Made by a program: the position numbers and the translations under genes. From Methanocaldococcus bathoardescens (GTDB lineage Archaea > AGJL01 > Methanococci > Methanococcales > Methanocaldococcaceae), in assembly GCF_000739065.1 (NCBI RefSeq), contig NZ_CP009149.1, positions 1,187,311 through 1,251,310 on the forward strand: a stretch of 64,000 nucleotides of DNA, in the 5' to 3' direction. Under the pieces are notes generated by a model, which was given only the letters and a program-made list of their open reading frames with translations, was not told where the DNA came from and did no database searches. Position 1 is the first letter of the stretch. Every line of letters begins with the position of its first letter. This document shows positions 6,563 to 57,889 of this stretch, piece after piece.

Positions 6563-6637
6563 GCCGGGGTAGTCTAGGGGCTAGGCAGCGGACTGCAGAT
6601 CCGCCTTACGTGGGTTCAAATCCCACCCCCGGCTCCA
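6563..6637 (+). tRNA. tRNA-Cys (GCA)
   Basis: 75 nt with encoded CCA. The acceptor stem GCCGGGG pairs with CCCCGGC, discriminator base U. The anticodon stem GCGGA/UCCGC encloses the loop CUGCAGA, giving anticodon GCA. The T arm GTGGG-TTCAAAT-CCCAC is perfect. No intron. The last 23 bases (6618-6640) recur in decayed form at 6771-6793 beyond a hairpin block. Confidence 0.97.
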
Positions 6638-6640
6638 TTT

Positions 6641-6793
6641 GAAACTTTAAGAAAGTTTCATCAAAGCTAACACCTCCTCGCTTACGCTCGGAGGTGTAAA
6701 TTAAGAGGCATTGCTTCCGTTAGGAAGCAATGCATCCGTTTTGATGAAACTTTTACTAAAAGTTTCGTTTAGATTTCACCTTCGGCTCCATTT
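6641..6793 (+). repeat. hairpin element with duplicated tRNA-Cys 3' end
   Basis: Directly after the tRNA come four hairpins. They are 6641-6659 (8-bp stem, loop AAG), 6671-6696 (CACCTCC/GGAGGTG around a CGAGC..GCGAG core, on the minus strand), 6705-6737 (GAGGCATTGCTTCC-GTTA-GGAAGCAATGCATCC) and 6746-6766 (GAAACTTTT-ACT-AAAAGTTTC). The outer segments are inverted copies of TTTTGATGAAAC..GTTTC, so the whole block is bounded by inverted repeats. The bases 6771-6793 match the tRNA 3' end 6618-6640 at 18 of 23 positions, including GGCTCCATTT. It looks like an element integrated at the tRNA 3' end; the distal tail has drifted mainly by C to T changes. Confidence 0.7.
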
Positions 6794-8435: not shown

Positions 8436-8591
8436 ATGGGAAGTAACAAGCCATTAGGAAAGAAGTTAAGATTGGCTAAAGCATTAAAGCAGAATAGAAG
8501 AGTTCCATTGTTTGTTATTGTTAAAACACGAGGGAGAGTTAGATTCCATCCAAAAATGAGATACTGGAGAAGAAAGAAATTGAAAGCTTAA
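8436..8591 (+). CDS. rpl39e: 50S ribosomal protein L39e
   Basis: 51 aa beginning [20 protein letters not shown] and ending [11 protein letters not shown], a full-length L39e, the small protein lining the lower exit tunnel of the large subunit. The second ATG (8436) is preferred over one a codon upstream, since the GGTGAG site is 5 bases ahead of the pair. It is 8 bases from the PP-loop gene. Its last seven codons plus stop recur at 8666-8689 downstream. Confidence 0.96.
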
Positions 8592-8689
8592 GTGAATGGA
8601 CATTAATTAGGGCTGAAAGCCCTAACTTAATGGACGAGTTTTGATGAAACTTTTACTAAAAGTTTCGAAGGAAGAAATTGAAGGCTTAA
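8592..8689 (+). repeat. hairpin element with duplicated rpl39e tail
   Basis: Two hairpins follow the L39e stop: 8607-8625 (TTAGGGCT-GAA-AGCCCTAA) and 8646-8666 (GAAACTTTT-ACT-AAAAGTTTC), the second preceded by the TTTTGAT flank also seen at 6739. The bases 8666-8689 then repeat the end of rpl39e and still read R-R-K-K-L-K-A-stop in frame; the differences (AGA/AGG, AAA/AAG, and AGA/CGA at the junction) are silent. The copy's TTAA supplies the stop codon of the convergent UPF0146 gene. Confidence 0.75.
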
Positions 8690-20053: not shown

Positions 20054-21061
20054 ATGAAAATCACACGAATGCATGGAGCTGGAGGAAAGGTAATGCAGGA
20101 GCTTATAAAAAATATCATTTTAAAAAATTTGGAGATAACATCAGTTAATGGAGGAATTGGTTTAGAGAGTTTAGATGACTCAGCAACTATCCCTATAGGA
20201 GATAAGGAGATTGTTTTTACTGTTGATGGACACACAGTTAAACCAATATTTTTCCCAGGTGGAGATATAGGTAGATTGGCAGTTAGTGGAACTGTAAATG
20301 ATTTAGCAGTTATGGGAGCTAAGCCATTAGCTCTATCTCTATCTTTAATAATTCCAGAAGGTTTTAACTTAGAGGATTTGGAAAAAATAGTTAAATCAAT
20401 AAACGAAACTTCTAAAGAGGCTGAGGTAGCTATAATAACAGGAGATACAAAGGTATCTGATGGTGTTGATGATATTATCATCTCAACTGCTGGAATAGGG
20501 ATTGTTGATAGAGGAAAAGCAATAAGGGATTGTAATGTTCAGGAGGGAGATGCAATAATAGTCTCTGGAAATATAGGAGAACATGGATTAGCTATTTTAT
20601 TATCGAGAGAGGGATTCGATTTTGAAACAAACATAAAATCTGATGTAGCTCCAATAAATAAATTGATTGAAAAAGTATTGAATGAAGGTATTCAAATAAA
20701 TGCCATGAAAGACCCTACAAGAGGAGGTTTGGCAGATGCATTAAATGAGATGGCTGAAAAGAGCAATGTAGGAATAACTATCTTTGAGGATAAAATCCCA
20801 ATAAGTGATGAAGTTCAGTCAATTTGTGATATCCTTGGCTTAGACCCTTTAACTATAGCAAATGAAGGTAAGGTTGTAATGGCAGTTAAAAAGGAAGACG
20901 CTGAAAGATGCTTAGAGATTTTGAGAGAACATCCATTAGGAAAGAATGCAGAGCTTATTGGCTATGCTACAAAAGAACATAAAGGAGTTGTGATGGAAAC
21001 AATTGTTGGTAGGAGAATTGTTGATATGCCGATTGGTGACCCAATACCGAGAGTGTGTTAA
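20054..21061 (+). CDS. hypE: hydrogenase maturation protein HypE
   Basis: 335 aa, PurM/AIR-synthase fold. HypE dehydrates a carbamoyl group on its C-terminal cysteine to thiocyanate, the source of the CN ligands of [NiFe]-hydrogenase. Visible are HGAGGKVMQELI, LDDSATIPIG, FPGGDIGRLAVSGTVNDLAVMGA, MKDPTRGGLADALNEMA and the required C-terminal PRVC with cysteine as last residue. The last 42 bases, which encode this critical tail, are duplicated at 21135-21176 beyond a hairpin element. Confidence 0.96.
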   Translation: MKITRMHGAGGKVMQELIKNIILKNLEITSVNGGIGLESLDDSATIPIGDKEIVFTVDGHTVKPIFFPGGDIGRLAVSGTVNDLAVMGAKPLALSLSLIIPEGFNLEDLEKIVKSINETSKEAEVAIITGDTKVSDGVDDIIISTAGIGIVDRGKAIRDCNVQEGDAIIVSGNIGEHGLAILLSREGFDFETNIKSDVAPINKLIEKVLNEGIQINAMKDPTRGGLADALNEMAEKSNVGITIFEDKIPISDEVQSICDILGLDPLTIANEGKVVMAVKKEDAERCLEILREHPLGKNAELIGYATKEHKGVVMETIVGRRIVDMPIGDPIPRVC

Positions 21062-21176
21062 ATAAGAGGCATCACCGAGCGAAGCGAGGTGATGCATCCT
21101 TGGGTATAGCAATAGGGCGGTAGCCCTATGCTACGTTGATATGCCGATTGGTGACCCTATACCAAGAGTGTGTTAA
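21062..21176 (+). repeat. hairpin element with duplicated hypE tail
   Basis: Hairpin 21066-21099 has the form GAGGCATCACC-GAGC-GAA-GCGA-GGTGATGCATCC; the GA/GA internal positions can form tandem sheared G.A pairs. Hairpin 21112-21129 is ATAGGGC-GGTA-GCCCTAT. The bases 21135-21176 then repeat 21020-21061 at 40 of 42 positions and encode the same 13 residues (V-D-M-P-I-G-D-P-I-P-R-V-C) and stop; both differences are silent third positions. Same hairpin order and orientation relative to the gene as at cbiX and the S2P protease. Confidence 0.8.
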
Positions 21177-28241: not shown

Positions 28242-28412
28242 TTTTGATGAAACAGAAAGCTCTGCTTTCTGGCTACAAATCCGTAGGATTTGTTCAATCG
28301 AAGCGTTAGCTTCGGGTTATAAAAACTCTTATGAGTTTTTATTTAACCAAAGCGTTAGCTTTGGGCAATGAAAACCGTTAGGTTTTCATCTAACTTTTTC
28401 TAAAAGTTTCAT
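28242..28412 (+). repeat. six-hairpin array inside one closing stem
   Basis: Starts one base after the methylase stop with TTTTGATGAAAC and ends with AAAAGTTTCAT, so ATGAAAC (28247-28253) can pair with GTTTCAT (28406-28412). Between them are six perfect hairpins: 28253-28271 (loop TCT), 28275-28293 (GTA), 28299-28314 (GTTA), 28319-28342 (TTAT), 28347-28364 (GTTA) and 28369-28388 (GTTA). Stems are 6-10 bp and all different, separated by 3-5 bases; a small seventh hairpin (AACTTTT-TCT-AAAAGTT) precedes the end. The outer arms match the flanks of the elements after tRNA-Cys and rpl39e. No clear copy of the gene tail is seen here. Confidence 0.72.
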
Positions 28413-49236: not shown

Positions 49237-49332
49237 GTTAAAATCAGACCGATTCGGTATGGAAACTAACTCCCACCTCCTTTTTTATTTTTTTAACCAC
49301 TGTTAAAATCAGACCTCTTGGAGGATGGAAAT
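49237..49332 (+). CRISPR. remnant CRISPR: two degenerate repeats and one spacer
   Basis: Repeat 1 is 49237-49266 and repeat 2 is 49302-49332, both starting GTTAAAATCAGACC and ending TGGAAA; the spacer between is 35 bases. The frame matches the M. jannaschii CRISPR repeat (GTTAAAATCAGACC, then TTTCGGAATGGAAAT) as I remember it. The central hairpins differ but both pair: ACCGA-T-TCGGT in the first, CCTC-TTG-GAGG in the second. No cas gene lies in the window. It could be a decayed array or a single promoter-driven crRNA-like unit. Confidence 0.65.
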
Positions 49333-50296: not shown

Positions 50297-50397
50297 TTAT
50301 CTTCCAAACGCTCTATACGCTATAGGGCTACTGCCCTATTGGTATACCGGGATGCACTACCTCGCTACGCTCGGCAGTGCCTCTTCTTTATTTGTTC
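50297..50397 (-). repeat. hairpin element with duplicated cbiX tail
   Basis: Read on the minus strand after the cbiX stop: hairpin GAGGCACTGCC-GAGC-GTA-GCGA-GGTAGTGCATCC (50350-50383, one G.T wobble), then ATAGGGC-AGTA-GCCCTAT (50322-50339), then an exact 20-base copy (50297-50316) of the end of cbiX (50398-50417), including the stop codon. Same hairpin order as at hypE and the S2P gene. Confidence 0.8.
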
Positions 50398-50844
50398 TTA
50401 TCTTCCAAACGCTCTATCGATAATTATATCTACAATCCTATCATCAGCACCTATTGGTTCTCTGTAAATAATTTCAACATCTTCTGGAATCTCTAACTTT
50501 TCATGTTCGTGATGATGGTGATGATGGTGATGGTGCCCATGGCCGTGTTCATGATGATGGTGTTCATGTTCTTCATCATCATTAATTAACCCTAACAACC
50601 TTGGAATATCTCTTGTTGTATGGATTCCATGAGCTAAGAAAACAGGAACAACAATAATTTTTTTAGCTCCCTGCTCAATTGCTTTTTTAACTGCTTGTGG
50701 AATTGTAGGTTCATTAAATTCCATTAAACCTATTTCAACAATTGGAAATATATTTTTTTCTTTAACCTTTTCGGCTAATTTTACTAAAAGCTCTTTACTA
50801 TATGGTAGTCTACTACCATGCCCTACCAATACCAATGCTTCCAT
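50398..50844 (-). CDS. cbiX: sirohydrochlorin cobaltochelatase CbiX (short form)
   Basis: 148 aa, the short archaeal CbiXS that inserts cobalt into sirohydrochlorin for cobamide synthesis (or acts as a Ni-sirohydrochlorin chelatase for F430). Visible are LVGHGSRLPYSKELL, VEIGLMEFNEPTIPQAV and VPVFLAHGIHTTRDIP with the catalytic histidines. Residues 96-118 form a histidine-rich insertion (DEEHEHHHHEHGHG, then nine H in a row), probably a metal store. GGTGAGGTT precedes the ATG. The last 20 bases are duplicated downstream. Confidence 0.93.
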   Translation of the reverse strand: MEALVLVGHGSRLPYSKELLVKLAEKVKEKNIFPIVEIGLMEFNEPTIPQAVKKAIEQGAKKIIVVPVFLAHGIHTTRDIPRLLGLINDDEEHEHHHHEHGHGHHHHHHHHHEHEKLEIPEDVEIIYREPIGADDRIVDIIIDRAFGR

Positions 50845-50951: not shown

Positions 50952-52043
50952 ATGGACACTTCTAAATTCATCTTAATTGTGGCAATAATAATTTGGCTAA
51001 TTTTATATGTTATTAGGGATTCAATAAACTTAAAAACCTATGGAGGAATTTTTGGAATTTTAAGAACTAAATTGGGGTTAAAAACAATTGAAAAATTAGG
51101 AAAGTATAAAATTTGGCAGAAAATAGGAATTATCTCTATACCAATATGTGTAGTACTTGGGTTTATTATGCTTTTCAATATAATAGCTATGAGTATAAAG
51201 CTGTTATCAGGAACTCTGCCAAAAGAAGCGGCAAAACCAGTAGTGTTTTTGTTTGGAGATGTAATTCCATGGATTCCAGGGATTATAGCTCTATTAATAG
51301 CAATTTCAGTACATGAATTAGCACATGGTATATTTGCAAGGTCTTTTGGAATTAAGGTTAAAAGCTCAGGAATTTTATTATTATTGGGTCTTCCATTGGG
51401 AGCTTTTGTTGAATTAGGAGATGAGTTTAAAAATGCAGAGAAAAAAATTAGAGGAGCTATTGCTTCAGCAGGACCATTAGCAAATTTATTGATTTTTTTA
51501 ATATCAATTCCACTACTTTCATTTAGCTACACATTACCAACAGAGTTAAAAATTATTGATGTTAAAGAGCCAGCATCTGAGTTTTTACAAAAAGGAGATG
51601 TTATTTATGAGATTAACGGTAAAAAAATAAATTCATTAGAAGATTTTAGAGAATTTGCCAAAACCATAGAACCAAATAAAGAGTATGAAATAAAAGTTTT
51701 GAGGGATAATAAAATACTGACGTATAAAATTATTAGCTCTGATGAAGGAAAGATTGGAGTTATGGTTTCACCAACAAAAAATACAGCACTATTCATAAAT
51801 ACAATATACTGGACTTATTGGTTTAACTTTTTATTGGCTTTATTTAACTTACTTCCAGCAATGCCTTTAGATGGCTTTCACGTATGGAATGCTTTCCCAG
51901 AATTATTAAAAGAGAGAAAAAATAGATTTATTGCAAAGATTGGACAGATATTAGAATTGTTTATAAATGAAAAAACTTTGGGCTCAATAACCCTTTTGGT
52001 TTGGTGGATTATTCTTGGAAGTATATTATATTCGATGTGGTAG
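50952..52043 (+). CDS. site-2 protease family (M50) metalloprotease with PDZ domain
   Basis: 363 aa. Several membrane segments; zinc motif SVHELAHGIFARSFG (HExxH) near residue 121, a second metal motif NLLPAMPLDGFH near residue 300. A PDZ domain lies between, with FLQKGDVIYEINGKKINSL. Site-2 proteases cut membrane-bound regulators within the membrane. AGGAG precedes the ATG. The last nine codons are duplicated at 52129-52157. Confidence 0.93.
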   Translation: MDTSKFILIVAIIIWLILYVIRDSINLKTYGGIFGILRTKLGLKTIEKLGKYKIWQKIGIISIPICVVLGFIMLFNIIAMSIKLLSGTLPKEAAKPVVFLFGDVIPWIPGIIALLIAISVHELAHGIFARSFGIKVKSSGILLLLGLPLGAFVELGDEFKNAEKKIRGAIASAGPLANLLIFLISIPLLSFSYTLPTELKIIDVKEPASEFLQKGDVIYEINGKKINSLEDFREFAKTIEPNKEYEIKVLRDNKILTYKIISSDEGKIGVMVSPTKNTALFINTIYWTYWFNFLLALFNLLPAMPLDGFHVWNAFPELLKERKNRFIAKIGQILELFINEKTLGSITLLVWWIILGSILYSMW

Positions 52044-52157
52044 GATTTAATTTCTCTTTATTTATGAGGCATTGCCGAGCGTTAGCGAGGCAATGCATCC
52101 TATCCCAATAGGGCGAAGCCCTATGGTTCGGGAAGTATTTTATATTCAATGTGGTGA
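52044..52157 (+). repeat. hairpin element with duplicated S2P tail
   Basis: Hairpin GAGGCATTGCC-GAGC-GTTA-GCGA-GGCAATGCATCC (52065-52099) is followed by ATAGGGC-GAA-GCCCTAT (52106-52122). Then 52129-52157 repeats the end of the protease gene (52017-52043) with a 2-base TA insertion; the substitutions ATA to ATT, TCG to TCA and stop TAG to TGA are all silent. The copy ends in GGTGA, which is the ribosome site of marC. Confidence 0.78.
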
Positions 52158-54038: not shown

Positions 54039-54055
54039 TTTAATCACCTAAGTTT

Positions 54056-54150
54056 AATAGGACTTTCGCAGTTTATATATTTAATAAAGGTATTTGGATG
54101 CCTTTAGGCATCAGTTCCTTAAAAAATTTTATTTCTGCGAAAGTCCTATT
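54056..54150. repeat. 95-bp element with 16-bp terminal inverted repeats, copy 1
   Basis: The ends AATAGGACTTTCGCAG and CTGCGAAAGTCCTATT are perfect inverted repeats. A central hairpin GATGCC-TTTA-GGCATC lies at 54097-54112. It fills the spacer between the divergent PP-loop and RecJ-like genes. A second copy lies at 57794. The form is that of a MITE or a cruciform-forming element; no transposase is in the window. Confidence 0.78.
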
Positions 54151-54256
54151 TAAATTAATCACAATTAAATATTTTTAATGTTAATGCTTCAAATAAAAAT
54201 ATTAGGTTAAATTTTTTATTTACAATATAGAAAATCATAAAATTTTCAGTGAAACT

Positions 54257-57742: not shown

Positions 57743-57793
57743 TCTTTCACCACAAATTTTTATATTTTTTAGCATTAAAATAACTTTAGCTTT

Positions 57794-57889
57794 TATAGGA
57801 TTTTCGCAGGAATAAATGTTTTATTGAATATTGATGCCTTTTGGCATATAAATTCCAAAAGTTAATATAGAAACTGCGAAAGTCCTATA
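57794..57889. repeat. 96-bp element with terminal inverted repeats, copy 2
   Basis: Ends TATAGGATTTTCGCAG and CTGCGAAAGTCCTATA are inverted repeats with one mismatch. A central hairpin ATGCC-TTTT-GGCAT mirrors that in copy 1 at 54056. It sits in the divergent spacer between cobA and hyuA, so it lies in or next to both promoters. Confidence 0.78.

Follow-up and report, generated by a model that had tools for sequence, protein, structure and literature searches.

Palindromic repetitive elements of Methanocaldococcus jannaschii (MJRE) were described by Suyama, Lathe and Bork (2005; cited here via PMC2229807), and the part of that citing review dealing with such repeats also covers YPAL, RU-2 and other bacterial palindromic MITEs, which are small palindromes with duplications of variable length (YPAL 3–26 bp). 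Two larger systems bring a homologous end of the target gene with them: prophage e14 sits in the 3' end of icd in E. coli with a displaced 163 bp icd fragment beyond it (PMC6379469), and SpyCI sits in the 5' end of mutL (PMC4129442).

The locus compared with these systems lies in a window of 64,000 nucleotides of Methanocaldococcus bathoardescens (NZ_CP009149.1, positions 1,187,311 to 1,251,310, forward strand), whose genome (home genome, G000) is a single contig of 1,607,556 bp. Other genomes are given as G numbers and loci as L numbers. The working hypE gene is followed there by an insert of 73 nt with two hairpins and then by a second copy of its last 42 bp; the copy that ends the gene is called F (working) and the other D (displaced).

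The hypE locus and the element family

The features at hypE are:
20054..21061, + strand, hypE, working gene (ORF of 335 aa; Pfam AIRS and AIRS_C; ends PRVC-stop)
21020..21061, + strand, working (F) copy of the hypE tail (repeat comparison within the window)
21062..21134, + strand, palindromic element; the A end (ATAAGAGGC) adjoins hypE and the R end (GCTAC) adjoins the D copy
21066..21098, + strand, module A hairpin of the element (RNA fold)
21107..21133, + strand, module B hairpin of the element (RNA fold)
21135..21176, + strand, displaced (D) copy of the hypE tail

The two tail copies are identical at 40 of 42 bp and both translate to VDMPIGDPIPRVC-stop; the differences, CCA/CCT and CCG/CCA, are both silent third positions of proline codons, as the initial annotation had stated. 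The element folds as RNA at -33.9 kcal/mol (z -5.06; 0/200 shuffles). In the window, Rfam gave no match of the element at gathering score, only one tRNA and two CRISPR repeats being matched. Taken by themselves the two silent changes at hypE are weak evidence, as both would be silent under drift with a probability of about 0.06 (0.24 expectation), and the silent pattern of tail copies is established by pooling loci only. Compared with G006, hypE of G003 carries 13 silently changed codons among its last 28, against 1–8 in other codon windows; no close donor of this divergent tail was present among the sampled genomes.

In general terms, the insertion is a palindromic non-coding element of about 50–180 bp between two copies of a gene's terminal 20–75 bp; the duplication length varies over this range and is not fixed. 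Modules A (GAGGCATCACCGAGCGAAGCGAGGTGATGC), B (GGTATACCAATAGGGCGGTAGCCCTATGG) and C (TTTTGATGAAACTTTT...AAAAGTTTC) are freely combined. Matches were obtained in 13 of 14 genomes of the genus both with the hypE stretch as query (E <= 0.01, where some matches are hypE tails) and with the element alone (E <= 0.001), and the module C hairpin is present in 11 of the 14; the rest of the order gave matches in only two genomes, both of one other genus, with 25 places in one of them. A 15-base scan of viral contigs for the element returned unselective matches. Judged by described traits and not by consensus sequence, the hypE-type element probably belongs to the MJRE family.

Direct repeats (straddling repeats counted at a score of at least 15) flank 18 of 31 element clusters in the home genome, compared with 6 of 400 control places taken from the window; the genome was covered by stretches around the elements. 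Among the repeats looked at individually, most were heads or tails of genes or else 3' ends of tRNAs. Pfam names of target genes include IMPDH, ATP-synt_D, tRNA pseudouridine synthase, eRF1, TPP enzyme, tetrapyrrole methylase and GHMP kinase. The copies are only 46–277 nt apart in 31 measured pairs and the hypE insert is 73 nt of hairpins, so that the elements encode no integrase, and there is no room for an endonuclease gene between the copies.

CRISPR arrays carry elements too, lodged in their terminal repeats and accompanied by a duplication of about 24 bp of repeat sequence (L046, G004:C1:293381 and 293563; L026, G005; L025, G004); at L046 the spacer-repeat-element unit is itself tandemly duplicated. 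One array of the home genome ends in CRISPR-DR13-like repeats with a composite element between them (L063 1040–1107, G000:C1:160340). At L282 (G035) two successive D copies of one gene tail, each beside a module C hairpin, represent serial insertion at the same gene end, and the inner hairpin of the IMPDH element (L016/L081) is inverted between G000 and G006, the adjacent coding tail being identical.

Further loci in the window

Gene-end duplications were located at four further places in the window:
8569..8591, + strand, working copy of the rpl39e tail (repeat comparison)
8592..8666, + strand, element behind rpl39e, ending in a module C hairpin (identical in G003)
8667..8689, + strand, displaced copy of the rpl39e tail (repeat comparison)
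50952–52043, + strand, S2P gene (Peptidase_M50, Pfam)
52017..52043, + strand, working copy of the S2P tail, stop TAG (repeat comparison)
52066..52130, + strand, element behind S2P, A end toward the gene (matches to element family)
52131..52157, + strand, displaced copy of the S2P tail, stop TGA overlapping the next gene (repeat comparison)
50398..50417, - strand, working copy of the cbiX-like tail (repeat comparison)
50317..50397, - strand, element behind the cbiX-like gene, A end toward the gene (sequence comparison)
50297..50316, - strand, displaced copy of the cbiX-like tail (20/20 identical to the working copy)
6614..6640, + strand, working copy of the tRNA-Cys 3' end (ARAGORN tRNA 6563–6637)
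6641..6766, + strand, composite element behind tRNA-Cys (sequence comparison)
6767..6793, + strand, displaced copy of the tRNA-Cys 3' end (21/27 identical)

The rpl39e copies are identical at 21 of 23 positions with two silent changes, in agreement with the silence claimed for them earlier. At S2P the copies differ by ATA/ATT, TCG/TCA and TAG/TGA, all of which had been listed in the initial annotation, and the 2-base indel that it added was not seen. Two cases in the window, those of tRNA-Cys and the cbiX-like gene, are absent from it. In the displaced tRNA-Cys end all changes relative to the working end are transitions (by eye five C to T and one A to G), and these might preserve pairing via G-U pairs.

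Other repeats were noted in the same window. A nested hairpin run lies inside a module C hairpin at 28250–28410, like the nesting at rpl39e in G006 and G001. A different inverted-repeat pair with 23-bp arms (ATAGGACTTTCGCAG ... CTGCGAAAGTCCTAT) and a distant related copy account for 54049–54157 and 57790–57888, and two solitary CRISPR-repeat-like sequences (DR13, DR39) lie on opposite strands at 49237–49332.

Silent divergence between working and displaced copies

Over 35 coding pairs, 154 codon differences between F and D are silent and 38 are replacements, a silent fraction of 0.80, versus about 0.23 expected for a neutrally drifting copy. These pairs are not independent where one locus recurs in several species, and they were found via nucleotide similarity, so that decayed copies are under-sampled; reading frames for hypE, rpl39e, L009 and L071 were set by hand before pooling. 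With one pair per locus the counts are 106 silent to 26 replacement, and in the home genome alone 48 to 19. The view of the initial annotation that the displaced copies have not been drifting freely is borne out by these further pairs, since their replacement share is far from neutral. At the same codons of element-free orthologues the silent share is 84% between free alleles, 86% between F and free alleles and 76% between D and free alleles, a pattern in which D copies resemble gene ends that functioned until recently, with replacements in some excess. Decayed D copies occur at hypE in G011, at L009 in G006 and at L071, where 7 of 9 changes are replacements. The F–D differences would be silent because they are mostly divergence between functional genes and not drift of a dead copy.

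A single ancient insertion followed by free drift is ruled out by the pooled silent excess together with the concerted sites described below. Direct selection on D as an expressed piece was also set aside as unlikely, since no start to express the tail pieces was seen and decayed D copies are tolerated.

Origin of the two copies

In 23 pairs, element-free orthologues agree with F at 81 sites and with D at 62, with 8 ties; S2P adds four sites, all in favour of D, which gives 81 to 66 over 24 pairs. The idea that the distal copy is always ancestral was discarded on these counts. The comparison with uninterrupted orthologues that the initial annotation had proposed came out for D at S2P and weakly at hypE and for F at rpl39e, so that its prediction is borne out at part of the loci only. 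At hypE, D is favoured at both sites by majority, and the nearest free relative, G006, is split 1:1. At S2P both internal sites are D-type in the free alleles of G003, G005, G011, G013 and G007, and D has ATT, TCA and the overlapping TGA in common with element-free G003.

Imported working ends are clear, by sequence comparison, at IMPDH, eRF1 and S2P. At IMPDH the last ~180 nt are 98–100% identical between G000 and G006 (0.83–0.93 further in the gene), and the D copies of these two genomes differ from each other. At the eRF1-like head, the 16 nt before the F start codon match the native flank of G013 in G006 (15/16) and the native flank of G001 in G011 (15/16), and the flanks beside D in G000 and G006 are those of G003 (16/16). 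At the truA head of G000, D begins with the ATGTATAT type of G003, G001, G005 and G011, and F with the ATGCACATA type of G006. The divergent hypE tail of G003 was read in the same sense, as a working end brought in from elsewhere. The flank at L009 showed moderate similarity to G011, which was matched in 6/500 and 31/500 shuffles, and was left out of the import argument. The working end derives from a diverged homologue, with D native, at S2P, IMPDH, the eRF1-like head, the truA head and the L008 tail. The earlier suggestion that the distal copies were once the working end, or were imported, accordingly stands in its first part for these loci; it does not extend to a rule, given the site counts, rpl39e and the decayed D copies.

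A perfect duplication of ~74 bp (66 coding and about 8 flanking bases) is present at IMPDH in G007 and is likely the fresh state; simple duplication therefore occurs as a starting state. Other identical duplications are the cbiX-like tail of G000 and rpl39e in G006 (25/25). The atpD insertion is common to the sister species G007 and G013, with the same element and the same flanks, and the 360 nt upstream are 99.4% identical. The atpD tails of the two species differ at 6/69 positions in F and 7/69 in D (tail vs upstream body, Fisher p 3e-4 and 6e-5). Four sites are concerted (F = D within a species, different between species) and none has the orthologous pattern, so both copies changed together after the species split; the evidence for concerted change is this one sister pair with its four sites, plus one site at IMPDH.

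Polarity

The GAGGC (A) end points toward the working copy in 17/17 scored pairs, tails and heads alike (p 1.5e-5; some loci are included in two species, which leaves about 15 independent pairs, and three further pairs were unscorable). Polarity was scored on the asymmetric outer bases of module A, as the module itself is palindromic. S2P agrees with this orientation, and so by eye do L287, L282 and L274 of G035. The R end directly abuts D at nearly all junctions, and short extra sequence is found on the F side; a GT preference at R-end junctions was noted by eye only, with no proper count. Symmetric target duplication predicts the A end toward F in half of the cases, and 17:0 is unexplained by ordinary target duplication. 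Such a constant orientation, A to F and R to D, suggests that the joining step is asymmetric, and it constrains how the elements move.

Mechanism

We think it probable, with some reserve, that insertion duplicates the gene end and that exchange with diverged relatives and conversion between the copies follow. Insertion would duplicate the end together with a few flanking bases, as suggested by IMPDH in G007, the cleanest case. Homologous recombination with alleles of other species could then replace F, D or both, which would leave F and D as functional gene ends of different lineages; the ortholog-like divergence, the foreign F at several loci and the native D at several loci support this step. 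A crossover inside D would retain the native end as D and add the donor end as F, which amounts to tail replacement on entry. Gene conversion between F and D would make both copies change together, as appears in the one sister pair, and from this we infer that exchange may be ongoing. D copies that are not refreshed would decay, as seen at several loci, and element-free alleles are probably regained by recombination between the repeats. The comparison covers one genome per species, and the model needs population polymorphism within species. Against it stands the 17:0 polarity, which symmetric duplication plus recombination does not predict; the lack of a donor among the sampled genomes for the hypE tail of G003, and D copies such as that of L071 in which replacements prevail, also count against it.

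The polarity is better accounted for if replacement on entry, as proposed in the initial annotation, is primary, a tentative reading to which we give a minor share of belief. Incoming DNA would end at the R end, with the donor's gene end adjoining the A end; homology would join it on the side of the gene body, and its R end would join inside the recipient gene end, which becomes D, so that the duplication would consist of two homologues from the outset. All 17 orientations, the junctions of the R end with D and the extra sequence on the F side agree with this, as do the foreign 5' flanks beside F at the eRF1-like head, the native D at S2P and the imported IMPDH tail in common. The identical or near-identical duplications (IMPDH in G007, cbiX-like in G000, rpl39e in G006) would however require a donor of the same species, D is not favoured overall by free orthologues, and no origin is given for the first insertion beside a gene. 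Since both copies changed together in two sister species, ongoing recombination accounts for more of the observations than one replacement event at entry would; of the earlier proposal, foreign F ends at several loci survive, and the exclusion of simple duplication does not, in view of the perfect IMPDH duplication. A related and equally doubtful possibility is that a polar joining reaction of a kind not yet described, acting at one end only, moves these gene-less palindromes; the R end would join into a gene end and the A end keep the incoming homologous end, such that each spread between species would replace the terminal codons of a housekeeping gene.

MITE-like transposition with a long target-site duplication, the copies drifting under different constraint, would fit the identical duplications at some loci, the partial repeat duplication around elements in CRISPR repeats and the decayed D copies (hypE in G011; L071), but the silent fraction weighs heavily against it as the whole explanation; an orientation that is not independent of the gene, the concerted change in sister species and the variable duplication length also speak against it, and we consider it improbable. 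More improbable still is site-specific integration by a tyrosine recombinase acting in trans at gene-end attachment sites, as for e14/icd or tRNA islands: gene-terminal direct repeats with the working end restored, the use of tRNA 3' ends and the fixed orientation are as expected for it, but the many unrelated target genes have no evident shared core, gene heads and tails are both targeted, and the elements are without a recombinase gene.

Comparison with known systems

Under duplication followed by exchange and conversion, D most likely stays gene-like because gene ends are repeatedly swapped between copies and species. Gene ends would then act as exchange points at which a dead-looking fragment evolves like a functional gene, and short recombination tracts exchanged between hyperthermophile species could be counted with the elements as markers. 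A duplicate that has diverged at silent sites only is not necessarily expressed.

A limited literature search found no account of gene-less palindromic elements with gene-end duplication, silent divergence, polarity or interspecies exchange. With MJRE the present elements have in common that they are palindromic, non-coding, dispersed and repeated, and from the same genus; the part of the citing review that concerns MJRE (PMC2229807) does not mention gene-end duplications, silent-only divergence, polarity or interspecies exchange. Compared with YPAL and RU-2 as presented in that part of the review, the gene-end duplications are longer here (~20–75 bp) and evolve like functional sequence. e14 and SpyCI are of kilobase size, carry an integrase and use one target gene, whereas the elements here are short, gene-less and found at many targets. 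The arrangement of a homologous gene end brought in by the element, with the older end displaced beyond it, is shared with e14. In homing elements, co-conversion carries flanking coding sequence along, and here too flanking coding sequence moves with the element (the IMPDH tract of ~180 nt); the elements described here differ in having no endonuclease gene and in that the recipient end is retained as D.
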